From positions 1 to 31,635 of IMG/VR virus record IMGVR_UViG_3300037540_000280: a stretch of DNA of 31,635 nucleotides. One strand, 5' to 3'. Positions 12,365-31,606 of the stretch are shown in pieces (position 1 is the first letter of the stretch; each line of letters starts with the position of its first letter). This DNA comes from a virus. The notes below the pieces were generated by a model, which worked only from the letters and a program-made list of their open reading frames with translations, did no database searches and was not told where the DNA came from. The position numbers and the translations under genes are program-made.

Positions 12365-14617
12365 ATGGGAGAAACAACTGGACAAACCGTAGGAATGATC
12401 GCTGGTGGAATAATTGGTGGAGTCATTGGTGGCTTTCCAGGGGCTATGGTAGGTATGTCTATTGGTGGTCAACTTGGTTTGTGGATTGATCCTCCTTCTG
12501 CTCCTCCACCTCCAGGTATGGGAGATCTTGGAAAAAATTCTTATGTAAGATCAACTCCAGTACCTTTGGTTTTTGGTCAATGTAAAGTTTTTGGTGGAGT
12601 TATTTGGGTAGGAGAATTAGAATCAGGTCAGAATAATGAGGGGTCAAGAAAAAATCCAGAGTGGGTTCCTGAGATGGATGCTGATTATGCTGTTTGTCAT
12701 TGTGAAGGGCCAGTTACTTCTTTTTTAAAATATTGGGTAGATGATAAAAAAGTTGGTGATTTAGAAGATGGATGGAAGATAGATTTTATTTCTTATCTTG
12801 GAACAGATATTCAGACAGCAGATCCTACAATATCTTCTTTTCAATCTGGAAAAACTGCTGGAACAATTCCCCTTAAATATTCAGCTTATACAGTAATTGA
12901 TTTGCATGTTGAAGACGCAATCCTTTCAAAGTTACCTTCTATTTCTGCTGAAATAAAAGCTTTCAGTATAGAGTCTGGAGAAGAAGATGCTAATCCCATT
13001 CGTGCTGTTTATAATTTTTTAACTGATACAAGGTGGGGATGTAAATTAGATGTAAATCTTTTTAATGGTGATCCAGATACCGCAGGAAGCCCTTGGAAGA
13101 TAGCATCAGATTATTGTGATGAATCGGTTCAATTTGTGGATTGGGATGATTCTCTTTCAAATGAACCACGATTTAGATTCTCACAGGTTTATGATGCAAG
13201 GGCAATGGCCTTTGATATTATCACAGATATGATGATGACATGTAGGGGTCTTATCCGGTTAAAACAAGGATTAATTGAACCTCTTATAGAGACTCCAAAT
13301 GAAACTCCTGAATCATATTTTGCTGATCAAACAAAAGATCAATTTGTTGCCGGTGGATCAAGTACAGTAAGTAGACTCTATGCTGATTTTGCAGCTTATC
13401 CAGATATTTTTTGGTTTGGTGATGAAGGTATAATAACTATATCGGAAACAGATTACAGGTTTTTAGTTAAGGATCAAACATCAACCTATATTGATTTGTT
13501 TGATGATCTTCCAGTATCACCAAATCCAAGTGATCCTTTTGAATTAGTAAAAGATAATATTAAAGAAGGATCGTTTAATTTTAAATATACTGGTTATTCT
13601 ACTATTCCAGATAAACATAGACTTGAATATGTACAAAGAGCAGTTAAAGATGAAGATGATGATTTTAGTAATGAATATATTTGGGATGCAGTAGAAAAAG
13701 ATAGTGAATCTTTCCATTCATTTATTAGTGATCAATATGGTTATTTTACAAAAGGCTCTCAATTAAAAACAGTTCGATTAGGAGGAATAAAAAGAAAATC
13801 ACAAGCAATGCGAATGGTTCAGTTTTATTCTGACTTTGCTTTATATTGCAGAAATTGGTGTGAATTTATTACAGGTATGCAAGGTTATTATCATGCCATT
13901 GGTGATATTATAGGTATAAGTCATGCTCAAACTGGATGGAATGCTAAATGGTTTAGAATTATAGGTATGGAGGAAATGGAAAACGATGAAGTTAAATTGC
14001 AATGTTTTGAATATAATTCTAATTGTTATAGTGATAGTATTTCTAAAGTAATAGCGTCAACTGACAATAATCCTCCGACTCCTTATGAAGCTCCTGATGT
14101 GGTTGAACGACTTTATGTTGTACAAGACTTTAGTGAAAATAAAATTTATATTCTTTATAAAAGACCAGATGGTAATCCTTATTTTATGGGAGCAAATATT
14201 TTTGTAAGTGTAAATGGAGGTGATTATAAATGGATTAAAGAAGTTTCATATATAACTCCTTCTGTAAAACTTGATGCAGGAATTGATGATTCGCAAACTA
14301 CTATTGGATATGACAATACCACATTGTATGGGTCATTTCCATCGACAGGTTCCTTTTGGATTGAGGATGAATTGATTACTTATGCTGGAATTTCTGGTGA
14401 TCCTGATTATGAATTTACAGGATGTGGTAGAGGAATCAGTCCTCTTGCTCATACGATAGATAAATATTGTATGTTAAAAGATAGCTATACTGGTTTTATT
14501 ACTTTTGAAGATGCTGATGTTGGTCAAGAATGGACAATAAAAGCGGTATCAAAAACGATTTATAATTTGAAATCAGATTTCGCTACTTCACCGACTAAGG
14601 TAGTTACTATATCATGA
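12365..14617 (+). CDS. Central tail-tip protein, gpJ-like (first paralogue)
   Basis: 750 residues; the start follows the previous stop directly (TAG ATG), with AAGGAG at 12353-12358. Residues 9-38 are a glycine zipper (AGGIIGGVIGGFPGAMVG) that could insert into membrane or pack helices, followed by a Pro-rich linker. Then comes the typical J/Phage-tail_3 opening VRSTPVPLVFGQCKVFGGVIWVGEL. A YADF...TSTYI module lies at about 337-375. Conserved core elements include FRFSQVYDARAM (about 268), KDNIKEGSFNF (about 396) and GDIIGISHAQTGWNAKWFRI (about 515). An FN3-like C-terminal region follows, with GSFWIEDELITYAGI and RGISPLAHT. Such proteins form the hub of the tip and carry adhesion functions. 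The next gene is a larger paralogue. Confidence 0.85.
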   Translation: MGETTGQTVGMIAGGIIGGVIGGFPGAMVGMSIGGQLGLWIDPPSAPPPPGMGDLGKNSYVRSTPVPLVFGQCKVFGGVIWVGELESGQNNEGSRKNPEWVPEMDADYAVCHCEGPVTSFLKYWVDDKKVGDLEDGWKIDFISYLGTDIQTADPTISSFQSGKTAGTIPLKYSAYTVIDLHVEDAILSKLPSISAEIKAFSIESGEEDANPIRAVYNFLTDTRWGCKLDVNLFNGDPDTAGSPWKIASDYCDESVQFVDWDDSLSNEPRFRFSQVYDARAMAFDIITDMMMTCRGLIRLKQGLIEPLIETPNETPESYFADQTKDQFVAGGSSTVSRLYADFAAYPDIFWFGDEGIITISETDYRFLVKDQTSTYIDLFDDLPVSPNPSDPFELVKDNIKEGSFNFKYTGYSTIPDKHRLEYVQRAVKDEDDDFSNEYIWDAVEKDSESFHSFISDQYGYFTKGSQLKTVRLGGIKRKSQAMRMVQFYSDFALYCRNWCEFITGMQGYYHAIGDIIGISHAQTGWNAKWFRIIGMEEMENDEVKLQCFEYNSNCYSDSISKVIASTDNNPPTPYEAPDVVERLYVVQDFSENKIYILYKRPDGNPYFMGANIFVSVNGGDYKWIKEVSYITPSVKLDAGIDDSQTTIGYDNTTLYGSFPSTGSFWIEDELITYAGISGDPDYEFTGCGRGISPLAHTIDKYCMLKDSYTGFITFEDADVGQEWTIKAVSKTIYNLKSDFATSPTKVVTIS
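12401..12432 (+). repeat. Copy 1 of 32-base identical repeat in glycine-zipper coding DNA
   Basis: This segment, beginning GCTGGTGGAATAATTGG, is base-for-base identical to 14689-14720 in the adjacent paralogue. It encodes AGGIIGGVIGG in both. The surrounding DNA is much more diverged. Confidence 0.9.
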
Positions 14618-17600
14618 ATATGGACATAGAAAAAACAGGTCAGGATTTACAAAATAAAGATACACGCAAACATGCTGCTGGTACGATAGCTGGTGGAATA
14701 ATTGGTGGAGTCATTGGTGGATACCCTGGAATGCAGATAGGTATGGCTATTGGGGGATATATATTTAAACCAAGCTCACCAAATAAAAAAGATTATACCA
14801 ATCCTGATTATAAAGTATACAAATCAAGAATAGATCCAGTACCGGTTGTAATTGGTACGGATATGTGTCCTGGAAAAGTAATTTATTTTAACAAAGATGA
14901 TTTTGGAGTTTATGATTCAGGACATTTGCCAAGTATGGAAGGCGCACCACATGAAAATCGATGGAAAGAATTTATTGATGCACTTGCAGATCAAAATGTT
15001 GCTTATTGGTCTGAGTTTGCTGTTAATTTTTGTACTGGTGGTCATATAGGAGTAGTTAAATTTAATGGCAAACCATTTTGGTTTTGGCTTATATTAAGTG
15101 ATTTGTGGGAAAATTATGATGGTGCTTTTAATCCTTATCCTCCTTTAACAGTTCTTGATGCTTCACAAAAGGAACATCGGTCATATATTGATATAGAAGA
15201 TATAATCAATCAGAATGTTCATAGTAATACAATAATGTATTTTAAAGGATTCTTTGCTGATTTTACTGCTCTCTCTACTGCACCGGAAAGTTCTAATTAT
15301 ACCATTGATATGAGGCTTCTTGATGAACTTAAACCTGAAATTCTGCCAGGGCCATTATCTGCCATGCCTATTTTTACTACTGAGATAAATTCATCTTTGA
15401 TTTGGTTAAGTCCTGAGTCAATGATAGGTGGATCAGGTATGCCTACTTATGGAGAACATGATTTTGAAGTTGATCCTGAAATAGGCGGTCTTAGTCATTA
15501 TGGTATAAATTTGAGTCGGTATTGGGGTTGTCGGGATGCAAGAAATACTAAATTTGTAGGAACGTCTGGTTATGCTCCAATTTATATGGAGGGTAGTGAT
15601 CGTAATTGGACTTATGCTGGAAATGATGCAACTTTACCAGAAGTAGGAGATCCTGAACCAGCTATTTTAGATTGGATGTATAATAATATAAGTATAGGAG
15701 GATCATATTTACAAGCTACAGATGTTAATGATAATCGGGTTTATATTTGTGCTTATAGAAATTGGGCTAACCCCAATCAAGGCCAAGGTGTTTATGGAGT
15801 AGATAAAGTTAATCATCATCATGCAGAATATGGAGTTGAATTCGATCTTTATTATTTTGATAGAAGTGATCCAGAATATAAAGTACATTCTCTTATTTAT
15901 AATCAAAAATATGATTTGCCAGATCCAGAAGGAGGAATTGTTGGTGATTCTGGTTCTAATCCAAATATTAAATTTGGAAGTATGGTGGTGGGTACTGATT
16001 ACGTTTATATATTTGGTAGTAGAACTCAAACTGATATTGTATTATCAGATGCAAGGGAGATTGAATCTGGAGATAATTCTTATTTTAAAATTTATGCTGA
16101 TTTTTCCCAATATCCTGATGGATGGTGGGAAGGAAAATATGCAGCATTAGCAAAAAATACCTGGAGAATTTGGCGAGAAATTACTGAACAAACCAGTACC
16201 TATATAAAAGTGGCAAAAGGATTTGCAGCATTACCTACTGCTGGTGATGTAGTTTATCTTTCTAAATATCCTAAATGGGTAGCTGATTGGGGAGTTATCG
16301 GTGCAATTAATAGTGATACAGAAATTATATGTAATCCTCCAACATGGAATTCTGATGGTTGGCTTGATAGTTCCGTCAGTGGTTTAACTCGATGGAATAA
16401 ATGTTTTTTAATTGGTAAATGGTTATATGGGCCAGGAATAAGTAGTATATCAGGATCAGTAATAACTTTATCATCACCATTTGATTATTACTATCCTAAA
16501 GTTGGTGATAGACTTTGTTTTACAATGGCTGCTTCCGGTGATTTTGATAGAAATTATACAGATCCCAATATGACTTCAGAATATGCTGGTATATTTTATG
16601 ATCCTTTAGGATTTGATTATCCTCCTAAAGCTGATTTGCAATTCTTATGGGCAAGTCGCATATCTGGTAATGAATTTAGAGATTCCCATCATGTTTGTTT
16701 GAAGATAGATAAAAGTACGGGGGCAATAGAAAAACATGATACACAAAGAGTGACTACTCCTACCTATTATGTTGGCTCATATCTTACATATACGACTGAT
16801 TATTTAAATACTTATGCCTGTGCCACTGATGTACAGGCTTTTGTTTATTCTCATGAAATGCAATATGGTACTCAGGCAGCAGTTTATTCTTACCTTCTTG
16901 ATTTTGATAATAGTGAAATTCATGAAACAATTCATCGTAGAAATAATAAAGCCGGTGGTCATGCTCCTGCATGGTGTTACATGGGTTGTGTTCCAGTAAA
17001 AGAATGGAATGCAGATGATCATGAATATCAAGATGTTTGGTATACTGTTCTTAGAAGTTATGATAGTGAGGAGAGAACTGGAATTCTTGCAATAGAAACT
17101 GATACTATAGGGCAGGGAACACATTTTTTAAGATTGGGTGATGGAAGATTTTCAAATAAACAAGCATACTTTGATGTTAATAATAGATGGCTTGGGTTAG
17201 ACCTTGATGGAGATCATAGAAATATTGATATGATTTTATTTCGTAAGGATATGGTCACAGGCCCATTGTATTCTGATGTTTATACAAGTTCTTATCCAAA
17301 TGAAAATAATTATCAAATTGGGAAATTTGGAATTACTGAAGATATTTATTTTTATGTAAATAGGAATGGTTCGCCAGATGAAATGTGGCGATTTACAATT
17401 CCTACTGAAAATAATAATGCAGGGGAATTATATTGCATTGCTAAAAGTGCTTTAGAGGATGCAGATAATAATGATCTTGATTATCACTGGTTAGAAATTT
17501 TATCTTGGGGTAATTTTAAGCAATGTAGGTATGGTTGGTATCCAAGTACTTTAACACAATGGAATTCTGGTAACTGGTATCAATGTGATGAAAGTCCAGC

Positions 17601-19647
17601 AGAAGTTATTGGTGGGGGTTTTTGGAGTAGTGAATTGGGTTTATTTAGAGGTTATTTTGGTCATGAATACGCAACGGGTTATTTTCAAATGCTTTATGAT
17701 GAAGCAACGGAGATCTGTAATGAAATAATTGATGCAACAATATATTCTCTTAAAGAACATATTGATATAAGAGAACGGAGGTTTCAATTTTCTCAATGTT
17801 ATGATCAACCAAAAAAATTTCATGATGTAATAGATGAAGTCATGGATACCTGTCAGGGTTTTATATCTGTATGTAGACAAAGAAACAGGAATTTTAAATT
17901 AATAATTCCTAATCCAGATGAAACTCCTGTACATTATTTTGGAATAGATTCAGGAGTATTTACCAGTAATCAATTATCAGATTCTGGCTATCTTTATATA
18001 GATAATTATCGTATCTATGCAGATTTTTCTGCTTATCCAGATAATTACTGGAAGGGTGATGATGTTTATTTTGATGGGATGAATGTAGATTGGAGTGTTG
18101 TTATTGAACAAACATCAACTTATATAACTGTAGGTGATGGTTTATCTGCCTGGCCTTACTTTCCTTTTCCAGTTTCAGAACAATTTACTTTAAAAAAAGA
18201 TAATATGAAGGAAGGCAGTTTTACCTTTGCAGAAAAATCAGCAAAGGATCGTCCTAATAAAGTTAGGATAGAATTTAAAAATAGGTTATTAAATTACATC
18301 AAAGATGTTGCTGAAGCTGAAGATACATATCGATTAGATATATTGGGGGAACCTGAAAAAATTGATTTTTATAAAATGCATGGAATTAAAAGAGCTACAC
18401 AGGCAGGACGTATGGCAATGAGAATTCTTGATCAATGGAATCATCAAAGATATGTCTGTGCATTTGAAACCGACCTAATGGGAATGACTCTTTGTATGGG
18501 AGATATAATAGGAGTGGGCCATGATACTACTGGATGGAATGGTAAATGGTTCAGGATAGTAGCAATGGATGAATTAATGGATTTTGAGGTTAAATTTGAA
18601 TTGGAAGAATTTAATCCTTATTGCTATCATGATTATGGTGTTCCTGTATATCAGGGTTATTCTTATAGTGGTTTTCCTACACCTTATGTACCAAGAAATG
18701 TTGGACGTTTTGAAGTTAAAGAAGATATAGAATTTAATCGATTGTATTTTACTTTTAAACCTCCTTCAAGGGATGCTGGATTTTTTACCGGAGCAAGAAT
18801 ATATCGGAAAACAGGTGATGATACCTGGGAATTTATTGCTCTTATATATGAAACAGTATCATCTGTTAAATTAGCTCAAAGCGTTGGAATAGATGATACC
18901 ACGATCTATTATGATAATGATTATCTATCCGGTTCATTTCCCTCTCAGGGGGTTATCTGGATAGAAAATGAGTTAATGTATTATCATGGTATTGATACCG
19001 TTAATTTCGCATTCACAAACGTTGTGAGAGGATATAAAGACACAGAACAGGTAGAGCATTTAATTGATGAAGAAACAAATCTTTATATTACCTTGAGAGA
19101 TGATGCTACTCTTTATTATGAAATACCTGAATCCTGGTCAGGAACTACTCAAACTTTTAAAGCATCATCTGTTACAATTCATAATTTAACCATAGATCTT
19201 GATACTTCTCCATCATTTACCATTAATATAATCGGTCATGGAGTGTTGCCTTACTTTCCTGAATCAATTCAAAATAAATTACCTGAATATGAAAATATAC
19301 TTGAAACTCTTGGTCTAAGTGATTATTTAATAGAAAAAACGATAGAGGAATTAGTAGAAACTCTTGGTTTGGGTACTTCAGAGGTAGTCACAGAAACGTT
19401 AGCCCAATTAGTTGAAATTCTTGGTATGGGTGATTCGGTTATTGAAACATCTAATAGAATAGAGGAATTATTTGAAACAATGGGAATGGGTGATGTTAAA
19501 TATCAACCAGACTATGTGCGTTTAATTGAAGCCCTTGGTTTAGGTGAATCAACTGAAGATTTATCTGATGGTCTTGGATTAGAAAGTATAAGTGGTTCTC
19601 TTTTACTTGAAAGTAGTGGTAAATTACTATTAGAAGAAGGAAGTTAA
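14614..19647 (+). CDS. Giant gpJ-like tail-tip protein with large central insertion and C-terminal repeats (second paralogue)
   Basis: 1677 residues, starting in an ATGA overlap with the first paralogue. It repeats the same plan: glycine zipper (about 24-48), VPVVIGTDMCPGKVIYF opening, RRFQFSQCYD (about 1055), KDNMKEGSFTF (about 1195), GDIIGVGHDTTGWNGKWFRI (about 1297) and an FN3-like end with GVIWIENELMYYHGI. Relative to the 750-aa protein it has about 700 extra residues between roughly 310 and 1020. These are rich in Trp/Tyr/Asp and beta-strand-like repeats, possibly propeller-like. A YADF...TSTYI module occurs inside this insert (about 492) and again in the core (about 1132). A C-terminal tail of about 115 residues carries six ETLGLGD-type repeats. 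Likely the main adhesin hub; whether both J-like proteins are in one virion cannot be told. Confidence 0.82.
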   Translation: MNMDIEKTGQDLQNKDTRKHAAGTIAGGIIGGVIGGYPGMQIGMAIGGYIFKPSSPNKKDYTNPDYKVYKSRIDPVPVVIGTDMCPGKVIYFNKDDFGVYDSGHLPSMEGAPHENRWKEFIDALADQNVAYWSEFAVNFCTGGHIGVVKFNGKPFWFWLILSDLWENYDGAFNPYPPLTVLDASQKEHRSYIDIEDIINQNVHSNTIMYFKGFFADFTALSTAPESSNYTIDMRLLDELKPEILPGPLSAMPIFTTEINSSLIWLSPESMIGGSGMPTYGEHDFEVDPEIGGLSHYGINLSRYWGCRDARNTKFVGTSGYAPIYMEGSDRNWTYAGNDATLPEVGDPEPAILDWMYNNISIGGSYLQATDVNDNRVYICAYRNWANPNQGQGVYGVDKVNHHHAEYGVEFDLYYFDRSDPEYKVHSLIYNQKYDLPDPEGGIVGDSGSNPNIKFGSMVVGTDYVYIFGSRTQTDIVLSDAREIESGDNSYFKIYADFSQYPDGWWEGKYAALAKNTWRIWREITEQTSTYIKVAKGFAALPTAGDVVYLSKYPKWVADWGVIGAINSDTEIICNPPTWNSDGWLDSSVSGLTRWNKCFLIGKWLYGPGISSISGSVITLSSPFDYYYPKVGDRLCFTMAASGDFDRNYTDPNMTSEYAGIFYDPLGFDYPPKADLQFLWASRISGNEFRDSHHVCLKIDKSTGAIEKHDTQRVTTPTYYVGSYLTYTTDYLNTYACATDVQAFVYSHEMQYGTQAAVYSYLLDFDNSEIHETIHRRNNKAGGHAPAWCYMGCVPVKEWNADDHEYQDVWYTVLRSYDSEERTGILAIETDTIGQGTHFLRLGDGRFSNKQAYFDVNNRWLGLDLDGDHRNIDMILFRKDMVTGPLYSDVYTSSYPNENNYQIGKFGITEDIYFYVNRNGSPDEMWRFTIPTENNNAGELYCIAKSALEDADNNDLDYHWLEILSWGNFKQCRYGWYPSTLTQWNSGNWYQCDESPAEVIGGGFWSSELGLFRGYFGHEYATGYFQMLYDEATEICNEIIDATIYSLKEHIDIRERRFQFSQCYDQPKKFHDVIDEVMDTCQGFISVCRQRNRNFKLIIPNPDETPVHYFGIDSGVFTSNQLSDSGYLYIDNYRIYADFSAYPDNYWKGDDVYFDGMNVDWSVVIEQTSTYITVGDGLSAWPYFPFPVSEQFTLKKDNMKEGSFTFAEKSAKDRPNKVRIEFKNRLLNYIKDVAEAEDTYRLDILGEPEKIDFYKMHGIKRATQAGRMAMRILDQWNHQRYVCAFETDLMGMTLCMGDIIGVGHDTTGWNGKWFRIVAMDELMDFEVKFELEEFNPYCYHDYGVPVYQGYSYSGFPTPYVPRNVGRFEVKEDIEFNRLYFTFKPPSRDAGFFTGARIYRKTGDDTWEFIALIYETVSSVKLAQSVGIDDTTIYYDNDYLSGSFPSQGVIWIENELMYYHGIDTVNFAFTNVVRGYKDTEQVEHLIDEETNLYITLRDDATLYYEIPESWSGTTQTFKASSVTIHNLTIDLDTSPSFTINIIGHGVLPYFPESIQNKLPEYENILETLGLSDYLIEKTIEELVETLGLGTSEVVTETLAQLVEILGMGDSVIETSNRIEELFETMGMGDVKYQPDYVRLIEALGLGESTEDLSDGLGLESISGSLLLESSGKLLLEEGS
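14689..14720 (+). repeat. Copy 2 of 32-base identical repeat in glycine-zipper coding DNA
   Basis: Identical to 12401-12432, at the equivalent position in the second J-like gene. Perfect identity amid diverged paralogues suggests gene conversion or selection at the DNA/RNA level. Confidence 0.9.
19303..19587 (+). repeat. ETLGLGD repeat array 1 (protein-level)
   Basis: Six units, each opening with a heptad of the form E-T-L-G-L-G-D (variants ETLGLSD, ETLGLGT, EILGMGD, ETMGMGD, EALGLGE, DGLGLES), spaced 13-20 residues apart. They occupy the C-terminal tail of the second J-like protein. The same unit type recurs at 20373-20669 in a separate gene. Confidence 0.88.
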
Positions 19648-20312: not shown

Positions 20313-21059
20313 ATGAAAGTATTAAAATTTGTAGGTGGTGACATAGGCCCACCAGAAATAGAATACTTAGAAGAAACTCTTGGTTTAGGTGATGCTCATT
20401 CTTTAGGATTTATTGGTCAGGAAGCATTTACTGAAACCATTGGTTTTAATGATAGCATGTATACCATTGTTGAAATGTTTATTATTGAAACTCTTGGTTT
20501 GGGGGATATACTTCCTGAATTTGTAGATATTGTTGAAACGATGGGTTTGGGTGATGTTACATATCAACCAGATTATGCTTCTATAATTGAATCCCTTGGA
20601 TTGGGTGATGAATTAACTAATACAATGGATATTTTTGTGGAGATAAATGAAACTCTTGGATTAAGAGATGGTGGATTTGGTTATTTAGAAATCAATTATA
20701 ATTTAAGGTGGAGAACTCGAACAAAAAAACTTACTTATGGTTTTGGTACTGCTCCTCATGGTGATCAAATTTCTTATGGTGACGGTGATGTGATCGATGA
20801 ACTTAAAGAGTTTAAAGTAAAAGTGATTCGATTATCTGATGAAACTGTTTTGAGAACAGATACTATTACCATTGCCAATAAACAATTTCCTGATGGATCT
20901 GCTCAATATATTTATACGGCAGCAATGAATGTATCGGATAATACAACTTTTGAACCTAATTTAAGATTTGAAGTTTATCAGATTGATATAAATGATAACT
21001 GGTCTCCAGCTAAATATATTGATATAACAGTTACCGATGAAGGGGGGGATTTAGAGTAA
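20313..21059 (+). CDS. ETLGLGD-repeat tail protein with C-terminal beta domain
   Basis: 248 residues. Only a weak Shine-Dalgarno-like sequence is seen before ATG 20313. Residues about 21-119 contain six ETLGLGD-type units. One unit (ETMGLGDVTYQPDYASIIE) closely matches a unit of the second J-like protein (ETMGMGDVKYQPDYVRLIE). Residues about 125-248 form a separate beta-rich domain with regular hairpins (RWRTRTKKLTYGFGT; FKVKVIRLSDETVLRTDTI; FEPNLRFEVYQIDINDNWS), FN3-like in feel. It probably continues the tip structure of the J-like protein. The stop overlaps the next start (TAATG). Confidence 0.72.
   Translation: MKVLKFVGGDIGPPEIEYLEETLGLGDAHSLGFIGQEAFTETIGFNDSMYTIVEMFIIETLGLGDILPEFVDIVETMGLGDVTYQPDYASIIESLGLGDELTNTMDIFVEINETLGLRDGGFGYLEINYNLRWRTRTKKLTYGFGTAPHGDQISYGDGDVIDELKEFKVKVIRLSDETVLRTDTITIANKQFPDGSAQYIYTAAMNVSDNTTFEPNLRFEVYQIDINDNWSPAKYIDITVTDEGGDLE
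20373..20669 (+). repeat. ETLGLGD repeat array 2 (protein-level)
   Basis: Six units with heptads ETLGLGD, ETIGFND, ETLGLGD, ETMGLGD, ESLGLGD and ETLGLRD, spaced 16-20 residues. They are homologous to array 1 in the J-like gene, with clear DNA-level similarity between 20535-20610 and 19474-19549. Confidence 0.88.
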
Positions 21060-21966: not shown

Positions 21967-22419
21967 ATGTCTGAGTCACAGATTGCCGTAACTGAAGGTT
22001 CGGGTAAGAACGTTTCAACGGTACAGGTTTCCATTGGTGGCAATACCAGACAGATCGAAAGAGATGTTAAAGGTATGGGTATAATTACTCTTGCCAATGT
22101 TACAACGGCACAAGGATCAACTGGATTATATCCTGCATCTCCTCTTGATTGTCAAGGTAGATATTATATCATATTAAAAAACACGTTTAATGATAATGGA
22201 GCATCGGCAACAATTCGTTTTTTATTTTATGATAGTGCCAGTACGGAGATAGGATATAGTGAGGCTGTACCCATTGCTAATCTTGGAAAATCTGTATCAA
22301 CAAGATTTTGGGGAGATTTAGTTGTTTTCTCAAATATCTATGGTGCAAAGGAATTTAAAGTTTCTTTGGAAGCTATTAGTGCTTCTGATAATATAACAAT
22401 TGATTATGGGGTAACATAA
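21967..22419 (+). CDS. Hypothetical fibre-region protein
   Basis: 150 residues; AAGGAG (21955-21960) precedes ATG 21967. The N-terminus (QIAVTEGSGKNVSTVQVSIGGNTRQIERDV) resembles the short connector found at the start of many phage fibre proteins. The rest is an all-beta domain with alternating hydrophobic strands (RYYIILKNTFNDN; ATIRFLFYDSASTEIGYSE; EFKVSLEAIS). It ends in a TAATG overlap with the first collar/Asp-box gene, implying coupled synthesis and perhaps a shared complex. Confidence 0.65.
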   Translation: MSESQIAVTEGSGKNVSTVQVSIGGNTRQIERDVKGMGIITLANVTTAQGSTGLYPASPLDCQGRYYIILKNTFNDNGASATIRFLFYDSASTEIGYSEAVPIANLGKSVSTRFWGDLVVFSNIYGAKEFKVSLEAISASDNITIDYGVT

Positions 22420-23585
22420 TGACTCTGTTACATCCAAAAGTATCTGAAATTTATTCTATTGGTACAATCATTGAAGCAAATGCACCCCCAAGTGGTAAAT
22501 GGTTGCCTTGTCAGGGGCAGATTTTAGCTCAAGCTGATTACCCTACATTATATGCTATGATGGATAATCCATATTCAATGATCTTTTCTGATTGGGAATT
22601 TTGTGATGATTTTGATACTGGAGAAGTTTATCCTTATAATGAAAGGGTTCAATGGAATGGTAGTACTGGTTCTCCGATATGGTTAGCTATGGATGGTGAT
22701 TATAATTATTGCCGATCAACTGATGGAATTACATGGGCAGTTTTATCTTTACCAGTGTCAGGATATTATTATCTTGGTTGGAATGGTACAGTTTTTTGTG
22801 CTTTAAAATATGAATCGACTCAAGCGTATACATCGACTGATGGAATTAGCTGGACTTCCCGAACTTTACCTTATGCTTATAGATGGAAAGCTGCTCTGTG
22901 GGATGGAACTAACTTTATAGCTTTTGCATCAAATAATGTTCAAACAATATATTCATCAGATGGAATTACCTGGAACAATGGGGGAGTATTAACTGAAACC
23001 CCATTTTATTATGGTGCTTCTGATGGGGCAGGAACAATAGTAGTAATTGATACTGGTAATGATATTGCTGTTTCAGATGATGGAGGAACTACTTGGACTC
23101 ATATAGAAGGGCCACAAGGAGGATGGTATTCAGTAGAGTATTGTAATAGTTATTTTTTGATTGCCACTGAAAGAGGTTATGTTGGTGTTTCTTCAGATGG
23201 TTTTGATTGGGAATGGAGACCTTATTTCATTGACAGGTTTGAAGGTAATGATCAGGAGTTGGGCACAGAATCAGTAAAAGTATGGCGTTGGAGATACCAT
23301 GCTGGTATTTATTTTGCTCCAGCTTACGGTTATGGTCATGGTGTCTATTCATTTGATATGAGAACTTTTTATCCTTGGTTTACTAATCCTCAATACACAG
23401 AACAATATGATACTATTTATAATTCCACATCAGGCAATTTAGTTGTTTGGGGTGGTTATACCTATAGTATGCCCTATTCTAAAAAAGCAGGTCGTTATAA
23501 TCCAAGCACACATTTTCAATTACCTCTTTATTTTAAACATAAATATTATGAACGTGAAAAAAATCGATATATAAGGGTATTATAA
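22419..23585 (+). CDS. Collar-domain adhesin interrupted by Asp-box beta-propeller (paralogue 1)
   Basis: 388 residues. Residues 10-48 (YSIGTIIEANAPPSGKWLPC, then QGQILAQADYPTLYAMM) match the first half of the phage tail collar domain. The second half (THFQLPLYF...NRYIRVL) appears only at about 363-388. Between them lie five Asp-box-like motifs at about 100 (STDGITW), 141 (STDGISW), 180 (SSDGITW), 218 (SDDGGTTW) and 258 (SSDGFDW), at about 40-residue spacing, as in blades of sialidase-like propellers. Asp-boxes are structural, so no glycosidase activity follows from them. It probably binds a receptor. The adjacent gene is a paralogue with the same plan. Confidence 0.82.
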   Translation: MTLLHPKVSEIYSIGTIIEANAPPSGKWLPCQGQILAQADYPTLYAMMDNPYSMIFSDWEFCDDFDTGEVYPYNERVQWNGSTGSPIWLAMDGDYNYCRSTDGITWAVLSLPVSGYYYLGWNGTVFCALKYESTQAYTSTDGISWTSRTLPYAYRWKAALWDGTNFIAFASNNVQTIYSSDGITWNNGGVLTETPFYYGASDGAGTIVVIDTGNDIAVSDDGGTTWTHIEGPQGGWYSVEYCNSYFLIATERGYVGVSSDGFDWEWRPYFIDRFEGNDQELGTESVKVWRWRYHAGIYFAPAYGYGHGVYSFDMRTFYPWFTNPQYTEQYDTIYNSTSGNLVVWGGYTYSMPYSKKAGRYNPSTHFQLPLYFKHKYYEREKNRYIRVL

Positions 23586-24782
23586 ATGGATCTAATACAT
23601 ACTAATATTGAATTAGAAATAGGAAGTGTGATTGAAGCCGTTGGCCCTCCTTCAGCTAATTGGAAATGTGCTGATGGTCAAATATTAGATCAAGCTGATT
23701 ATCCTCAATACGTTGCTTCCTGTCAAGAGTTACATCCTAAAAGATATGAAGGTATGAGGTTTATGAATGAACGTACTGAAGTACCTCATGCCTGTGCCAG
23801 AAAAGGAAATATAATTGTTGTCGTGGGAAAAGGAGATGAGTGTCTTTATACAACTGATGGAGGACAAAATTGGACAGTAAACACTCCATTTGGATCATCG
23901 GCAGATTTTTACTATTGTGTGGGTTGTGATGGAACCACTTTTGTTACCTGTAAATATAATAGTAATGTTGCCTATACATCGACTGATGGTATTAATTGGA
24001 CTTCCCGAACCATGAACCAATCAACAAATTGGGAGTCAGTATTTTGGACAGGTAATTATTGGATGGCAACTGATCGGTATGGTGGAGGAATTGACTACTC
24101 CAGTGATGGAATAACTTGGTACAGTTCTACGCCACCAGATACAGGTTATCGTTCTTATTATCAAGCTTGGGGAAATAATATTTATCTTTATTTTAGTTAT
24201 TATGATTATAAGTGGCATATAACAGATGATGGTGGGCAAACTTGGTCGGAAGATGATGATCATTTTGGATGGTTTTCTCCAGAGTATGAAGGAATAACTC
24301 CTTCTATAGTGGGTTTTGATGGAGTATACTTTATTTGTTTTTATGAACAGCTTATGTCAAATACTTTTTTAAGATCTACTGATGGGATCAATTGGGAGTG
24401 GATGCCTTTTACTAATACCCGATGGGATTATCACGATTTTTTCCCTGGTATTATTCATTATGATGGCGTAGAAGATGTTTTTTTATTACAAAGTTATGGA
24501 ACTAATTACCCTGCTTGGCATATGGCTAAAAAGGGTCATGTTGAACATTATAAAAAAAGAATAAGTCAAGTTATTTATAAATATCCTATAGGAACCTATG
24601 AAGGAAAGCAAAAAGTAGCTGTTATACCTGGAACCGGAATGTTTTGTATTGGGGAGGATCAGATTCAAAACAGAGAGATTTGGGCAGATTTTACTCGTTA
24701 TGATAGTACAACAAAATTTCAACTTCCTGTGTTATCTACCGGATTACCTGGAGGAGTAAAAAAATATATAAGGATGGCTTAA
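23586..24782 (+). CDS. Collar-domain adhesin interrupted by Asp-box beta-propeller (paralogue 2)
   Basis: 398 residues; its ATG directly follows the stop of paralogue 1, with AAGGG upstream as a weak site. Collar first half at about 13-42 (GSVIEAVGPPSANWKCADGQ, then ILDQADYPQY), second half at about 375-398 (KFQLPVLSTGLPGGVKKYIRM). Asp-box-like motifs are at about 88 (TTDGGQNW), 132 (STDGINW), 171 (SSDGITW), 212 (TDDGGQTW) and 263 (STDGINW). Strong local identity to paralogue 1 (YTSTDGI-W-TSRT) shows duplication, while the loops between motifs differ, which fits altered binding specificity. It ends in TAATG with the glycosyltransferase gene. Confidence 0.82.
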   Translation: MDLIHTNIELEIGSVIEAVGPPSANWKCADGQILDQADYPQYVASCQELHPKRYEGMRFMNERTEVPHACARKGNIIVVVGKGDECLYTTDGGQNWTVNTPFGSSADFYYCVGCDGTTFVTCKYNSNVAYTSTDGINWTSRTMNQSTNWESVFWTGNYWMATDRYGGGIDYSSDGITWYSSTPPDTGYRSYYQAWGNNIYLYFSYYDYKWHITDDGGQTWSEDDDHFGWFSPEYEGITPSIVGFDGVYFICFYEQLMSNTFLRSTDGINWEWMPFTNTRWDYHDFFPGIIHYDGVEDVFLLQSYGTNYPAWHMAKKGHVEHYKKRISQVIYKYPIGTYEGKQKVAVIPGTGMFCIGEDQIQNREIWADFTRYDSTTKFQLPVLSTGLPGGVKKYIRMA

Positions 24783-25681
24783 TGGTAGCAGCAGTACCAC
24801 AAGTAATTTTTAAACAATGGCAAGCTCCTGGAGATTTACTAATGTTAACGGTTGCACTTAGAGATCTTCATAAAATGTATCCTGGTTTAATGAAAACTGA
24901 TATACTTTGCTGCTATCCAGAAGTATTTTTTAATAATCCTAATATAATTCATTTACCTAAAGATGATAGTGTTCCTGTTGTAGATTTAAAATATGATAAA
25001 GCAAGAGATAAGCTTGCTCCTCTTGGTTATCATTTTTCATCTGTGTTTATTTATTTGTTTAATGAATTGTATGATCTTAAATTAATAAAAACATCAATGA
25101 GACCGGATATTCATCTGACAAAAGATGAAAAATCAGATAGAATATTAAAACGTCTTAGAATTAAAAAACCTTATTGGTTAATTAATTCTGGAGTAAAGTA
25201 TGATATTCCAATAAAAGGTTATCCACCTTCAATGTGGGAAAAAATTATCGATGGCTTAATTGGTGGGGGATTAAATCTCTATCAAGTTGGAAGTCGTAAT
25301 GATATTCATCCCGATCATAAAAAAGTTAGATCATTAGTAGGTGAAACTGAAAATTTAAGGGATTACTTTTCATTGGTATATCATTCAAATGGATGTGTTA
25401 ATCATGTATCTATGCAGATGCATCTTGCTGCTGCTTTTCATAAACCCTGTGTTACTATTGGTGGAGGACGTGAAGATTGTCGATGGGAAGCTTATCCTGA
25501 TCATCGGTATTTAAATACTATTGGGCATTTGGATTGTTGTCAGGAGAGAGGATGTTGGGTTTCAAAAGCAGAGAAATGTAAACATCTTTGGAAAGATACA
25601 CCTTATGCTACTTGCCTTGCTATGATTGAACCTGAAAGGGTTATTAAAGAAGTTTTAAATTATTGTAGAATAATTAATTAG
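24782..25681 (+). CDS. GT9-like (heptosyltransferase-type) glycosyltransferase
   Basis: 299 residues; ATG 24782 overlaps the previous stop, with AAGGA at 24769-24773. The N-terminus (IFKQWQAPGDLLMLTVALRDLHKMYPG) is the GT9 opening, 'G-D-x-L-x-x-T-x-x-L-x-x-x-x-x-x-x-P'. The C-terminal half has the sugar-nucleotide-binding type region: WLINSGVKYD (about 137), LYQVGSRND (about 170) and NHVSMQMHLAAAFHKPCVTIGG (about 211-232). A cysteine-rich tail (CCQERGCWVSKAEKC, later ATC) is unusual and may bind metal. GT9 enzymes transfer heptose or similar sugars to LPS; here the substrate could be host surface glycan or the phage's own fibres. Its coupling to fibre genes favours a late, virion-related role (inference). 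Confidence 0.8.
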   Translation: MVAAVPQVIFKQWQAPGDLLMLTVALRDLHKMYPGLMKTDILCCYPEVFFNNPNIIHLPKDDSVPVVDLKYDKARDKLAPLGYHFSSVFIYLFNELYDLKLIKTSMRPDIHLTKDEKSDRILKRLRIKKPYWLINSGVKYDIPIKGYPPSMWEKIIDGLIGGGLNLYQVGSRNDIHPDHKKVRSLVGETENLRDYFSLVYHSNGCVNHVSMQMHLAAAFHKPCVTIGGGREDCRWEAYPDHRYLNTIGHLDCCQERGCWVSKAEKCKHLWKDTPYATCLAMIEPERVIKEVLNYCRIIN

Positions 25682-25691
25682 GAGATAAAAA

Positions 25692-26705
25692 ATGGCTTTA
25701 ATATATATGGATGGTTTTGATTATTATAGTAATGATGAGGCTATTTCAAGAGGATGGTCTTTTCATAATACTTATACTACATGGAATTCTCTCTATGGCA
25801 GATTTGGTGGTATTGGTGTTGCGAATACTTATGATAATCAACGATTGAAAAGAAATATTGGAGTAAATAAATCAACATTATACATTGGTGTAGCAATCGG
25901 TAAATGGGAATTTGGTACTCCTGAAATTCAGCTTGCCGATCCTTTTGCTATTCTTACTGATGAATTAGATGTACATCAAGTAAAATTTCATTTAAGTCCA
26001 ACATATGAAATATTAGTTTATCAAGGAGATGATACTTTACTTGCTACTTCTGCTGTTGATGTTCTAAAAAATTTTGTTTGGCAATATTTAGAATTAAAAG
26101 TGGTTATTAGTGCTACGGTTGGTGTGGTTGAAGTTAGAGTAAATGGGGTGGAAGTAATTAATGAAACTGGATTAGATACAAAAAATGGATCAGATTATAT
26201 GCGTAATCTTGGATTTGCCGCTTTTGCATATAATAGGAGTGCTGTTTACGATGATCTTTATATAGATGATGCTCAGTTTCATGGAGATTGTCGAATAAAA
26301 ACTTTTTTTCCTGATTCAGATTCAGCTATTCATACTGATTTTGTCAGATCAGCGGGATCAAATGATTATGAATGTGTAGATGAGACTGATCCAAATGAAG
26401 ATACTGATTACATTTATGCAAATGTAATGGGAGATATATCAACCTTTGGTATTACTACTGGAACATTAGGAACAGTTATAGGTATTCAATTAAATAATTA
26501 TCTTCGTAAAGATGATGCTGGAACCAGAAAAATTAAACCATTAATCAGATCTAATGGTGCTGATTACCAAGGAACAGAATTAGATGATGTACCTGCTAAT
26601 TATATATTTTATTCTGATATATGGGAAACAGATCCTGACGATTCAAATCCCTGGACACAAACAAAATTAGAAGCGGCTGAGTTTGGTTTAGAAATTACTA
26701 CATAA
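25692..26705 (+). CDS. Lectin-like (LamG/concanavalin-type) tail adhesin, paralogue 1
   Basis: 337 residues; TTAGGAG (25678-25684) precedes ATG 25692. Residues 1-200 show the jelly-roll pattern of LamG/concanavalin-like domains: MDGFDYY opening, STLYIGVAIGKW, WQYLELKVVISATVGVVEVRVNG, and YDDLYIDDAQ closing the fold. A separate C-terminal domain starts at GDCRIKTFFPDSD, with SNDYECVDE, and ends DPDDSNPWTQTKLEAAEFGL. Four more copies of this two-domain protein follow (27584, 29502, 30545, 31606). It most resembles 27584. Likely carbohydrate-binding on the virion surface; ligand unknown. The intergenic leader resembles that of 27584. Confidence 0.8.
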   Translation: MALIYMDGFDYYSNDEAISRGWSFHNTYTTWNSLYGRFGGIGVANTYDNQRLKRNIGVNKSTLYIGVAIGKWEFGTPEIQLADPFAILTDELDVHQVKFHLSPTYEILVYQGDDTLLATSAVDVLKNFVWQYLELKVVISATVGVVEVRVNGVEVINETGLDTKNGSDYMRNLGFAAFAYNRSAVYDDLYIDDAQFHGDCRIKTFFPDSDSAIHTDFVRSAGSNDYECVDETDPNEDTDYIYANVMGDISTFGITTGTLGTVIGIQLNNYLRKDDAGTRKIKPLIRSNGADYQGTELDDVPANYIFYSDIWETDPDDSNPWTQTKLEAAEFGLEITT

Positions 26706-27583: not shown

Positions 27584-28606
27584 ATGGCCTTAATATTAAT
27601 AGATGGGTTTGATTATTTTTCTGAAGGACAATCTGTAGCAATGGGTTGGACTATGGGTAATTTTTTACAGGTTAGTTGGAGTTCATCTTATGCAAGATAT
27701 GGCGGTGTTGGTATTCGTATTACAGATTCAGGTTCACCAAGTTATATACTGCACAGGAATATGGGGGTAAATAAGTCTACTATTTATTTGGGTATAGCAA
27801 TTTATAAATATGGCACAGGAACACCATATTTTCATAATGATGGTGCTTTTGTGCTTTTTGAAGATGAATCTAATATAGATCAAGTGAAACTTTATGTGAA
27901 TAATAGTTGGGGAATTGATGTTTATAGAGGGGATAATACTTTACTTGGATCTACTGCTGATGATCTTATTGCTAATCGAAGATGGTTTTATTTAGAGGCT
28001 AAAGTTACCATTAGTGCTACTGTTGGAGTAGTAGAATTAAGAATAAATGGGAATCAGGTTTTAAATCTTACTTCTCAAGATACAAAAAATGGTTCTGATT
28101 ATATAAGAAGTTTTGGACTAACCGCTATTCATAGTGATAATGAGACTAATTTTGATGATATATATGTAGACGATGCTCAGTTTCATGGTGATTGTAGAGT
28201 AAAAACTTTTGTACCTGATTCTGATGGAAACTCCACTGATTTTACACGATCAACCGGATCAAATGATTACGAATGTGTTGATGAATTACCAGCTAATGAA
28301 GATACAGATTACATTGTATCGGATACATTGAATCACAAATCAATCTTTGGTATTACCACTGGAGCATTGGGAACGGTCAAAGGTATTCAATTAAGTAATC
28401 GTGTGAGGATTGATGAAGTGGGAACCAAAAAAATTACTCCAATAGTACGATCTAATTCAACTGACTATACAGGTACGGAGACAGAACTTATTACTGCTGA
28501 TTATTTATTTGAATCAGAGATTTGGGAAACAGATCCTGACGATTCAAATCCTTGGGATCAAACCAAGTTAGAAGCAGCAGAGTTTGGTTTGGAGATAACT
28601 ACATAG
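27584..28606 (+). CDS. Lectin-like (LamG/concanavalin-type) tail adhesin, paralogue 2
   Basis: 340 residues; TTAGGAG (27569-27575) precedes ATG 27584. The plan matches 25692: IDGFDYF opening, VNKSTIYLGIAIYK, RRWFYLEAKVTISATVGVVELRINGN, DTKNGSDYIRS and FDDIYVDDAQFHGDCRVKTF, ending WETDPDDSNPW and then KLEAAEFGLEITT, nearly identical to 25692. The middle of the jelly roll differs most, including the loop around FHNDGAFVLFEDESN, where ligand loops usually lie. It forms a subfamily with 25692, distinct from the 29502/30545 pair. The final 80 bases are closely similar in DNA to the end of 25692, indicating recent duplication or conversion. Confidence 0.8.
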   Translation: MALILIDGFDYFSEGQSVAMGWTMGNFLQVSWSSSYARYGGVGIRITDSGSPSYILHRNMGVNKSTIYLGIAIYKYGTGTPYFHNDGAFVLFEDESNIDQVKLYVNNSWGIDVYRGDNTLLGSTADDLIANRRWFYLEAKVTISATVGVVELRINGNQVLNLTSQDTKNGSDYIRSFGLTAIHSDNETNFDDIYVDDAQFHGDCRVKTFVPDSDGNSTDFTRSTGSNDYECVDELPANEDTDYIVSDTLNHKSIFGITTGALGTVKGIQLSNRVRIDEVGTKKITPIVRSNSTDYTGTETELITADYLFESEIWETDPDDSNPWDQTKLEAAEFGLEITT

Positions 28607-28617: not shown

Positions 28618-29496
28618 ATGGCACTTAGAAATACTCAAATAGCAGTTGAGGTACTTGAAACTGAAGCTAATCCTAATCTTAGAAATACTCAAATAGCAGT
28701 TGAGGTACTTGAAACTGAAGCTAATCCTAATCTTAGAAATACACAAATTGCTGTTGAAGTATTAGAAGTGACTAACTTGATGCAGGTTGCACAGCAATTT
28801 GTTCAAGTCATATCTAATAATGATCCTGTTAATACTATTCAGGTTGCACAGCAATTTGTTCAGGTCATTTCTAAAAATCCAATTCAAGAAGCCACTTTTG
28901 TTGGAAATGATGGTGATCCTCCTGATTCAGATGTGTGGTCGGTACAAGCAGGAACACCTGTTATCGATACCAATCAATTAGAGTTTCTTGTTAACTCTGG
29001 TATGACTGATGAAAAGGTAAAGAATAAACAAAAGGTAGCTGGAGATTTTGAAATATATATTGATATAGATGTTGATCAAGAACCTGCTCAAGATAACTGG
29101 AGTTTTGGTTTGGATGTGGAGGTTTCCCTCGATACATATTTTAAGGTTAATCGTGAATATGATAATGTAAATGGTCAAGATGTAGTTGTGCGAACAGCAG
29201 ATGGTGGTGCAGAGACTGTTTACAGAATTTCAGATAATCCATCGACTACTAAATTAAAAATAAAGAAAGAAGGCAATACTTTTAAAGGATGGTATTGGGA
29301 TGGATCTGCTTTTGTTCAAATAGGATCTGATGCTACCGTGGGCTTATCTCCTGATGAATTTTGGGTTTATATGGTAGCTGAAACAAAAAATAATGAAGCT
29401 CAGTTAAGAGTCTTGGTTGATAAATTTACAATACTGTCTGGTTATTTTGCAGATTCATTTTTGCAGAATGTATATTTAACCATCATTGAAGGATAA
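28618..29496 (+). CDS. RNTQIAVEVLE-repeat protein with concanavalin-like C-terminal domain
   Basis: 292 residues; AGGAG (28605-28609) precedes ATG 28618. The N-terminus holds three 18-residue repeats (LRNTQIAVEVLETEANPN type, about residues 3-51), followed by two 19-residue repeats QVAQQFVQVIS (about 56-86). Such R-x-T-Q-x-x-x-E-V-L repeats are known in phage structural proteins of unknown function. From about 97 (FVGNDGDPPDSDVWSVQAG) to 284 there is a jelly-roll domain with GDFEIYIDIDVD, WSFGLDVEV, STTKLKIKKEGNTFKGWYWD and LVDKFTILSG, like DUF1349-type lectin folds. It separates the two lectin-like subfamilies in the array. Confidence 0.78.
   Translation: MALRNTQIAVEVLETEANPNLRNTQIAVEVLETEANPNLRNTQIAVEVLEVTNLMQVAQQFVQVISNNDPVNTIQVAQQFVQVISKNPIQEATFVGNDGDPPDSDVWSVQAGTPVIDTNQLEFLVNSGMTDEKVKNKQKVAGDFEIYIDIDVDQEPAQDNWSFGLDVEVSLDTYFKVNREYDNVNGQDVVVRTADGGAETVYRISDNPSTTKLKIKKEGNTFKGWYWDGSAFVQIGSDATVGLSPDEFWVYMVAETKNNEAQLRVLVDKFTILSGYFADSFLQNVYLTIIEG
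28624..28731 (+). repeat. Perfect 54-base tandem duplication
   Basis: 28624-28677 and 28678-28731 are identical (unit starts CTTAGAAATACTCAAATAGC). A third, degenerate copy begins at 28732 and differs mainly by synonymous changes. The exact copy keeps the reading frame (18 codons), so unit number can vary without breaking the gene. Confidence 0.93.
28783..28878 (+). repeat. Second short repeat pair (QVAQQFVQVIS)
   Basis: CAGGTTGCACAGCAATTTGT at 28783 recurs at 28840, a 57-base period (19 codons). The copies differ at only a few sites over about 39 bases. Within the 28618 gene, directly after the 54-base array. Confidence 0.85.
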
Positions 29497-29501: not shown

Positions 29502-30545
29502 ATGACACTTTTAATGTTTAATGGTTTTGAGGGAAATTATGATACACCTGTTGATCAAAAAAATATGTCTGATGGTATTCTTTCTCTTTCTGGAACACAA
29601 TCAGCTTGGCAGTATGATGTTGGAGGAAGAAATGGAGGGAAAGCATTAAAATCAATTAATGCAACTTGGGATGAAGTTGTTAATATAAAATTTCCTGGAG
29701 TAACAAATGATAAACTTGCTATAGTTGGTTTTGCTATTAAATTTGCATATTTTGGTAGTACTGATATTGGTTTTTTAGGTGATGATTATTCAGGTGATGG
29801 TGGTTATGTGTCCATTAATAGTAATGGTGATTTAATTGGTAAAGTAAAAGCTTTTGGCATACAAGCATCAGAAAGAATAAATATTAAAATTAATCAGTGG
29901 TATTATATAGAATTAAAAATGAAATTACATAGTAGTGCTGGAGTATGTGTTATTAAAGTAAATGAACAAGTACTTCTTGATTATACGGGATATTTATGGT
30001 TTTCAGGTGAGGATTTAACTACTGATCGATTTTGGATAAAAGGACTACGAAATTCAGGTACATTAATAGATGATGTTTATGTAGCTGATAATCAAGGAAC
30101 TGAAAACAATGATTTCTTGGGAGATATTCGGGTTGATAATATTCATCCAAATGGGGCAGGAAATTATGCACAATTAACACCTTCTGCTGGAGCCAATTAT
30201 GAATGTGTAGATGAAGTTTCATATGATGATTCTGATTACGTTGAAGGGATTAATGCTGGAGAAAAAGATTCATATACCTATGGTTCTGTGCCTACTGATC
30301 TTGATGATGCAGGTATTATTGGTCTTCAAATAAAAAATAATTCAAAAAGAACAGCAACCGCTGATAATATAAAAATTGATTCTTTCATAAGAACAGGATC
30401 AACTGATTATAGTCAAACAGTACAAGATTTGCCTGATGCTTTTGGAATGGTTGGTGGTGATATAGTTCTTGATGATCCAAGTGATTCTAATCCCTGGACA
30501 CAAGCGAAAATTAATGCATGTGAATTTGGCATGGAGGTAGCATAA
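29502..30545 (+). CDS. Lectin-like (LamG/concanavalin-type) tail adhesin, paralogue 3
   Basis: 347 residues; AAGGA (29488-29492) precedes ATG 29502. The two-domain plan is that of 25692, but of a second subfamily. The jelly roll holds LMFNGFEGNY, KLAIVGFAIKFAYFGSTD, WYYIELKMKLHSSAGVCVIKVNEQ and LIDDVYVADNQ. The C-terminal domain reads GDIRVDNIHPNGAGNYAQLT, then ANYECVDE and DSNPWTQAKINACEFGMEVA. It is closest to 30545. It ends in a TAATG overlap with that gene, and its last 33 bases plus the next start are nearly identical to the corresponding junction at 31574-31614. Probably displayed on tail fibres for glycan binding (inference). Confidence 0.8.
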   Translation: MTLLMFNGFEGNYDTPVDQKNMSDGILSLSGTQSAWQYDVGGRNGGKALKSINATWDEVVNIKFPGVTNDKLAIVGFAIKFAYFGSTDIGFLGDDYSGDGGYVSINSNGDLIGKVKAFGIQASERINIKINQWYYIELKMKLHSSAGVCVIKVNEQVLLDYTGYLWFSGEDLTTDRFWIKGLRNSGTLIDDVYVADNQGTENNDFLGDIRVDNIHPNGAGNYAQLTPSAGANYECVDEVSYDDSDYVEGINAGEKDSYTYGSVPTDLDDAGIIGLQIKNNSKRTATADNIKIDSFIRTGSTDYSQTVQDLPDAFGMVGGDIVLDDPSDSNPWTQAKINACEFGMEVA

Positions 30546-30553
30546 TGACACTT
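30513..30553 (+). repeat. Gene-junction repeat, copy 1
   Basis: These 41 bases, spanning the end of paralogue 3 and the start of paralogue 4 (AATGCATGTGAATTTGG onward), match 31574-31614 at the paralogue 4/5 junction with one mismatch. Such a conserved junction could mediate gain or loss of a whole gene by homologous recombination. Confidence 0.85.
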
Positions 30554-31606
30554 AAATTTATAGATGGTTTTGAAAGTTATGATAATGCTGCTGATATGAT
30601 ACCAGCGTTTCCTGGAACATCAAATAGTGGTACTATTACTTTCCCAACAACAGGAAGAAGATCAGGAACTAAATGCTTTCAATGGGATGCAGGGTTAGCT
30701 TCTGGAACGCTTCGTTTTCCTGTAGATGTTAGCACATTTGAAGTTAGTGAATATGCTATAATTGGTTTTGCTTTTAAAGTTATTGAAGATGGTTCTGGTT
30801 ATGATATTGATTTTTATTTAGATAACGGCAGTTCAGGTGATGGTGGAGGAATGGCATTTAGCTTTAAAAATAATACTACTACTATAGCTATTAAATATTG
30901 TCGCCAATTTGGTACTACAATTATAGATTATATTACTTATGAACTTAATCAATGGAATTATCTTGAAGTAAAAGTAAAAATAGGTGATGGTACTGATGGT
31001 CATATTGTAGCCCGATTAAATGAACAAGAAATAGTTAACTGGACAGGTGATAATCGTCATTCAGGAACAACAGGTCTTCAAGTTAGTAGGTTTTATGCAG
31101 CCCTTCAAAGATATTGGGATATATCAATAGATGATTTTTATATTGCTGGAGGTAACGGATCATATAATAATGATTTCTTAGGAGATGTAAGAATTGATGT
31201 TATCAATCCAAATGGTGCAGGAAATTATACTCAATTGACACCTTCAGCGGGAAACAATTATGAATGTGTTGATGAGGGTATAATAGATGAATCCGATTAC
31301 GTTGAAGGAGCCAATGCAGCAGAGAAAGATTCATATTCTTATGCTGATGTGCCAACTGACCTTGACGATGTAAGTATCTTTGGAATATGTCTTAGAAATA
31401 TATCACAACGGACAGCAGGATCAGATAATATAAAAATTGATGCTTTAGTAAGAACTGGATCTACTGATTATAATTCTGCTTCTGAAGTATCACTGACAGA
31501 TACTTGGTCAAATAAAGATTTTATGTTTGAAAAAGATCCAAGTGATTCGGGTGATTGGACTCAGGCAAAAATAAATGCATGTGAGTTTGGCATGGAGGTA
31601 GCATAA
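30545..31606 (+). CDS. Lectin-like (LamG/concanavalin-type) tail adhesin, paralogue 4
   Basis: 353 residues, starting inside the TAATG overlap with paralogue 3 and lacking an independent strong binding site beyond GGAGG at 30533-30537. FIDGFESYDNAADM opens the jelly roll, with EYAIIGFAFKVIEDGSGYDIDF, WNYLEVKVKIGDGTDGHIV and SIDDFYIAGG. The C-terminal domain (GDVRIDVINPNGAGNYTQLT; NNYECVDEGIIDESDYVEG; TQAKINACEFGMEVA) is very close to paralogue 3, while the N-terminal lectin-like part is clearly more diverged. That contrast fits a conserved attachment domain carrying a variable binding domain. Confidence 0.8.
   Translation: MTLKFIDGFESYDNAADMIPAFPGTSNSGTITFPTTGRRSGTKCFQWDAGLASGTLRFPVDVSTFEVSEYAIIGFAFKVIEDGSGYDIDFYLDNGSSGDGGGMAFSFKNNTTTIAIKYCRQFGTTIIDYITYELNQWNYLEVKVKIGDGTDGHIVARLNEQEIVNWTGDNRHSGTTGLQVSRFYAALQRYWDISIDDFYIAGGNGSYNNDFLGDVRIDVINPNGAGNYTQLTPSAGNNYECVDEGIIDESDYVEGANAAEKDSYSYADVPTDLDDVSIFGICLRNISQRTAGSDNIKIDALVRTGSTDYNSASEVSLTDTWSNKDFMFEKDPSDSGDWTQAKINACEFGMEVA

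Follow-up and report, generated by a model that had tools for sequence, protein, structure and literature searches.

The window analysed here, which is the whole of a 31,635-bp IMG/VR virus record, contains two adjacent genes whose products share the same architecture. P1 (22419..23585, + strand) encodes 388 amino acids arranged as a collar N-half, a seven-bladed Asp-box propeller and a collar C-half, according to sequence and model. Its paralog P2 (23586..24782, + strand) encodes 398 amino acids, and the similarity between the two proteins reaches an E-value of 3e-25, with 36% identity over residues 3-278. The two genes abut on the same strand, the P1 stop codon ending at 23585 and the P2 ATG starting at 23586, and the P1 ATG at 22419 overlaps the stop codon of the preceding ORF. 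They are located 3' of a tail assembly gene and of two genes for long central tail fibre (J-like) proteins (12365..19647, + strand), which match phrog_31 (central tail fiber J) and phrog_1101. Side-fibre genes are usually found downstream of J-like and tail assembly genes. Several repeated elements can also be observed in the window. Short E-[ST]-[LM]-G-L-G-D repeats with irregular spacing are present at 20313-21059, and many more of them occur in a 794-residue protein of another viral contig, L003 (387-2771). The 3' end of the window is occupied by four phrog_2448 paralogs (25692-26705, 27584-28606, 29502-30545 and 30545-31606) with small fibre-like genes between them, and the ORF at 28618-29496 begins with three copies of the direct repeat LRNTQIAVEVLE, followed by two (M/I)QVAQQFVQVIS repeats.

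In both proteins the collar is reached after only some 13 residues. In P1, the first half of this domain covers residues 14-51 (IGTIIEANAPPSGKWLPCQGQILAQADYPTLYAMMDNP; 22458..22571, + strand), is confidently modelled, and is detected by Pfam, residues 20-52 matching positions 8-39 of the 57 positions of PF07484 with 26.3 bits, above the gathering cut-off of 24; the P1 ortholog reaches 31.0 bits. The corresponding region of P2, residues 12-46 (IGSVIEAVGPPSANWKCADGQILDQADYPQYVASC; 23619..23723, + strand), is recognisable at 13.9 bits, under this cut-off. A profile HMM restricted to ordinary collars retrieves both first halves (E 4.8e-10 for P1 and 3.8e-4 for P2), together with those of other members. 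Both proteins terminate in FQLP...YIR. This second half corresponds to residues 361-388 of P1 (FQLP at 366, terminal NRYIRVL; 23499..23582, + strand), as delimited by unsupervised alignment and by the model, and to residues 370-398 of P2 (YDSTTKFQLP...KKYIRMA; 24693..24779, + strand), as delimited by alignments. The coordinates, the PF07484 match and the common ending confirm the original prediction that each protein starts with the first half of a collar and ends with its second half.

The distance from GQ to FQLP is 333 residues in P1 and 347 in P2, versus 26-52 in the other IMG/VR collars. A contiguous PF07484 collar has its F-x-L-P about 26-30 residues after GQ, and the collar of P1 and P2 is therefore a split version of this domain. 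The spacing was surveyed in 54 IMG/VR stretches retrieved with a DNA pattern for GQ-x-L...DYP-x-L-[YF]. From GQ to F-x-[LVI]-P, 26-33 residues were found in nearly all the readable ORFs and 38-52 in a few; the sole ORF with hundreds of residues (333) is a relative of the window on contig 3300049098_000197. The two halves had been supposed to be adjacent in ordinary collars. This is true of the first half and F-x-L-P, but not of the last strand (YIIK or YIR), which usually comes after a second insertion, often a large one. Indeed, most ordinary collars carry a large insertion of their own between LPD and the final YIIK-like strand. This second site is collapsed to about 15 residues in P1 and P2 while the insertion before F-x-L-P is present, which amounts to a relocation of the module between two collar loops. 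When ordinary contiguous collars and split proteins are aligned together with MAFFT, their T-x-F-x-L-P columns coincide across the 300-residue gap. When the terminal halves were joined before the PF07484 search, the P1 match did not extend into the second half and the P2 score rose by only two bits, from 13.9 to 15.9. The two halves also occur together. Among the matches listed, the second half is present in 11 of the 14 complete Asp-box ORFs with an HMM-detected first half and in 14 of the 180 without (Fisher p 5e-9; the Fisher tests used here compare related sequences and their p-values are indicative only), and a divergent first half can be discerned by eye in all 14 of the latter.

The insert separating the two halves covers residues 54-359 of P1 (22578..23495, + strand) and approximately residues 50-365 of P2 (23733..24680, + strand). 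Five Asp-boxes are found in each, with their DG at 102/141/181/221/260 in P1 and 91/134/174/215/266 in P2, a spacing of about 40-50 residues. The five S/T-x-D-G-x-x-W motifs announced for each protein are thus present as Asp-boxes, the strict form being limited to four in P1 and three in P2 (about 0.016 are found per shuffled protein); the looser DG-x2-3-W form occurs five times in each and twice in the 9,585 residues of the other window ORFs. In P1, a sixth blade repeat is degenerate (VYSFDMRTF) and a seventh is devoid of a box. The P2 insert was delimited by its motifs and by alignment with the propeller family.

A structural model of P1 was produced with AlphaFold2 from a 71-sequence alignment collected from the window and the fetched viral loci. 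The alignment had been deepened because the four closest sequences gave a pLDDT of 33, and ordinary collars were excluded so that the closure of the collar was not built in. The resulting model has a pLDDT of 79.7 and a pTM of 0.76. Residues 54-359 superimpose on the seven-bladed virginiamycin B lyase with a VIA-align Z of 27.8 (280 residues, 2.5 A). Ycf48 occupies the first rows of a Foldseek search with the model (E 1e-9) and is the best hit of a profile search of PDB sequences (E 4e-6); phmmer with P1 alone returned no real match among PDB sequences. The PDB and BFVD fold-search matches to the model are propellers, and hence bear on this part of the protein. According to DSSP, each of blades 1-6 is four-stranded and blade 7 is made of three strands, residues 328-335, 340-346 and 353-359, closed by residues 54-56; blade 7 is the only blade without any trace of an Asp-box. 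Regular boxes at the C-D turns and a closed propeller in the P1 model are the features of a Ycf48-like Asp-box propeller. The prediction that the middle region is a propeller holds, and the assignment of the P1 insert as a seven-bladed beta-propeller is strongly supported by the model. Outside the propeller, the same model contains strands at residues 17-20, 28-30 and 35-37, a helix at 42-47, and strands at 365-367 and 382-386, with a pLDDT of 85-91 for the first collar block and 87 for the second. These elements, from which the packing of the two halves was read with DSSP and pLDDT, are in line with the helix-plus-sheets core described for gp10, gp11 and gp12 (PMC3004832). The structure prediction suggested as a check thus provides, for P1, both the propeller and strands in each collar half. 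Together with the MAFFT alignment and the co-occurrence of the halves, these ordered ends strongly support the claim that the terminal pieces form one split collar.

The same layout is present in other phages. Asp-box scans of IMG/VR returned at least 298 Asp-box ORFs, a count that represents a sample and not a frequency, and split collars were recognised by HMM, motif and eye on at least 18 viral contigs besides the window. Contig 3300049098_000197 carries both paralogs in the same order, with 77% identity for P1 (ortholog in L003) and 88% for P2 (ortholog in L003/L009). Tandem arrays of split-collar genes comprise two genes each in the window and L003, three genes each in L074, L187 and L256, and at least two in L311, L376, L205 and L088. 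Insert lengths among the matches listed fall into classes of about 290-370 residues (most members), 560-570 (L243, L212) and 860-1010 (L071, L105, L094), as expected for what would be one, two or three propellers. Among the matches listed the layout is essentially viral, with a single occurrence in the 81 Asp-box ORFs of bacterial genomes, on a Verrucomicrobia MAG contig. A 336-residue ORF of L279 (IMGVR_UViG_2892966740_000003, 2390 onwards) combines a good first half (GDILYSADAPGPDWLPCDGSAYLQSSYPVLYGKLG) and Asp-boxes with no clear in-frame second half. Sugar-transferring enzymes are also encoded nearby: a GT9 (heptosyltransferase-like) gene (24782-25681) adjoins P2 directly, and a group 1 glycosyltransferase gene lies just 3' of the tandem split-collar genes in L187 (4351-5346, unrelated to the window) and in L074. 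A role of such neighbours in receptor or fibre modification is possible.

A tblastn search of a phage collection extended the Asp-box relatives to named isolates, including Caulobacter phages KSC (gp039) and Percy. KSC gp039 combines a T7-type N-terminal domain (Pfam), a collar first half (SGFVPADD...YLSSVYPAAAALL), an insert of about 600 residues and a C-terminal AAFRVP...PYVKIG. The tail fiber protein of Percy has an N-terminus 60% identical to that of KSC and the same split-collar layout at its C-terminal end. The insertion point, for which a search had been suggested, thus recurs in other phages, both in these isolates and on the viral contigs. Stenotrophomonas phages CM1/RAS14, Limnohabitans phage DC31 and Synechococcus phage B23 gave Asp-box matches to P1, with no split collar in the stretches read. 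The siblings BL198, BL199 and ERS (L424, L425 and L426) of Percy and KSC have a 408-residue tail fibre with another ending and two extra genes, so that in this group of Caulobacter phages the end of the fibre seems to be swapped as one block. Host range differs between KSC and Percy (PMC11053796); assigning this difference to the propeller was rejected, as siblings with quite different fibres share the host range of Percy. The structure 9CUY, whose sequence is found in Pectobacterium phage phiTE, was likewise discarded as a solved split collar: it had seemed one because only its N-half matched, and the collar of the phiTE protein is of the ordinary kind, its loop being shortened.

Conservation is unevenly distributed along these proteins. 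Between P1 and its ortholog, identity amounts to 97% in the first collar half, 72% in the insert and 90% in the second half, with omega values of 0.05, 0.54 and 0.37, respectively. The L074a/L187a pair follows the same pattern (89%, 60% and 93%); for KSC and Percy the identities are 59%, 30% and 38%. The corresponding values for P2 are 94%, 87% and 96%, the omega of its insert (0.22) being near the 0.10-0.25 of neighbouring genes. In three of the five ortholog pairs, conservation is higher in the collar than in the insert; in the b and c pairs of L074/L187 it is not. Pooling the five pairs, differences affect 139 of 380 positions (37%) in the B-C and D-A loops versus 50 of 298 (17%) in the A-B and C-D loops (p 9e-9). 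The excess is weaker against the A-B loops alone (p 0.004) and is driven by P1 and L074a; the P2 insert compared with its ortholog shows neither faster evolution nor a loop bias. The pooled differences map to the side of the propeller that lies away from the Asp-boxes and the collar, a distribution to be expected of an outward binding face. Columns invariant across 16 members are structural Asp-box and collar residues. The specificity diversification proposed at the outset is indirectly supported by the faster change of the P1 insert, but is not clearly apparent in that of P2.

Taken together, these results make it quite probable that P1 and P2 are receptor-binding tail-fibre tips of a lambda-like siphovirus, in which a collar holds an inserted seven-bladed Asp-box propeller. 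Following the P1 model, the chain would begin the collar with three short strands and a helix, exit after this helix and supply the last strand of blade 7. It would circle the whole propeller and return from the third strand of blade 7, the collar being finished by F-x-L-P and the C-terminal strand. Since residues 54-56, coming from the N-terminal side, close blade 7, both entry and exit of the chain are at the C-D turn of this blade in the model, and the collar accordingly takes the place that an Asp-box turn would have there. The likely ligand face would be formed by the B-C and D-A loops, on the opposite side, which are directed away from the collar. The collar, presumably trimeric, would act as a holder at the fibre end and the propeller as the presented module, binding a cell-surface receptor that is probably a glycan; tandem copies may confer different specificities. 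The view of the collar as the virion anchor does not agree with KSC and Percy, whose fibres are anchored by a separate T7-type N-terminal domain and have their collar at the far end. Solved collars such as those of T4 gp12 and gp37 also lie near fibre tips.

Propellers of the Asp-box type can also act as enzymes or mediate protein-protein contacts, and three other readings have to be weighed. The propeller might be a structural or protein-protein module, contacting for example a fibre or baseplate protein, with receptor binding left to other proteins, the J-like ones or the four downstream phrog_2448 paralogs for instance. The very short region ahead of the collar, the many other candidate adhesion genes of the window and the conservation of P2, about equal to that of its neighbours, speak for this reading. 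It is nevertheless unlikely given that in KSC and Percy the module is located C-terminally in the tail fibre, and that the variable outward face and tandem diversification resemble those of adhesins. An enzyme borne by the collar, that is a depolymerase or a glycosidase as in endosialidase tailspikes and not a pure binder, is quite unlikely. The sialidase FRIP motif is absent from P1 and P2, their only F-x-[LI]-P being the collar FQLP, the best profile and Foldseek relatives belong to Ycf48, a non-enzyme photosystem assembly factor, and the invariant columns described above are structural. These observations outweigh the presence of Asp-boxes in sialidases, the weak hit of the family profile to sialidase 7lbu (E 0.019) and the beta-propeller active site of the K1F tailspike (PMC12632334).

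The third reading would restrict the collar to the N-terminal half and make of FQLP...YIR an unrelated propeller cap, as the failure of PF07484 to reach the second half in joined P1 could suggest. It is very improbable, because contiguous collars align unsupervised to both ends, the halves co-occur across Asp-box ORFs, both ends form strands in the P1 model, and the same pair of ends is found in KSC and Percy. A receptor-binding tip built on one split collar is thus the preferred reading. The presence of the layout in many other phages gives it the appearance of a plug-in design that can be reused in host recognition. In a broader and more tentative proposal, which has a reasonable if lesser chance of being right, the loop before F-x-L-P would be a general plug-in site of collars for one to three serial propellers, the tandem cassettes would constitute a multi-specificity adhesin system spread across unrelated phages, and the collar would replace the seventh Asp-box turn with the variable face outward. 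If this loop is such a site, host-recognition modules could be predicted in those viral genomes in which annotation currently detects only half a collar. The architecture becomes recognisable in proteins left as hypothetical or 'tail fiber' by databases, many Asp-box phage proteins become linked to a collar-borne tip, and the layout predicts which face of the propeller meets the host.

Neither an Asp-box propeller at the collar site preceding F-x-L-P nor its tandem arrays were found in the open-access literature searched. To this extent the original prediction of a family not yet described stands, but related proteins have been deposited under general names and similar predicted folds automatically named as collar proteins. 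The fibres of Percy (ALF01679.1) and KSC (WCD56176.1) are annotated only as tail fiber protein; like P1 and P2, they have the first half, an Asp-box insert (about 600 residues) and a C-terminal second half, and unlike them a T7-type N-terminal anchor, a long shaft and an insert about twice as long. Foldseek matches along most of the P1 model are obtained with the uncultured-phage proteins A0A6J7W9V9 ('Phage tail collar domain containing protein') and A0A8S5VC24 ('Short tail fiber protein'), whose names are automatic annotations and whose likeness to P1 is by predicted fold only. Ycf48 (2XBG, 5OJP) shares seven blades and Asp-boxes with the P1 insert but is a free-standing photosystem assembly factor without a collar. 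Evolved Dits also carry modules plugged into the loops of a conserved tail domain (PMC7291167), with the difference that their scaffold is the Dit galectin domain and their insert a carbohydrate-binding module. The closest parallel in terms of collar loops bearing large inserts is offered by T4 gp12 (1OCY, found by the ordinary-collar profile; collar residues 342-397) and the 'flower' motif of gp10/gp11, and a receptor module borne as an insertion is known for gp12 (PMC3004832). Since inserted receptor modules are already known from gp12 and evolved Dits, P1 and P2 do not represent a new category. The GQ-type half of gp12 stands directly next to its LPD, with the insertion following LPD; the insertion of P1 and P2 precedes F-x-L-P and consists of a propeller, the later site being collapsed. 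Short tail fibres of the gp12 type are defined by a receptor head after LPD and a trimeric shaft before the collar; P1 and P2 have no such shaft, their collar lying almost at the N-terminus.
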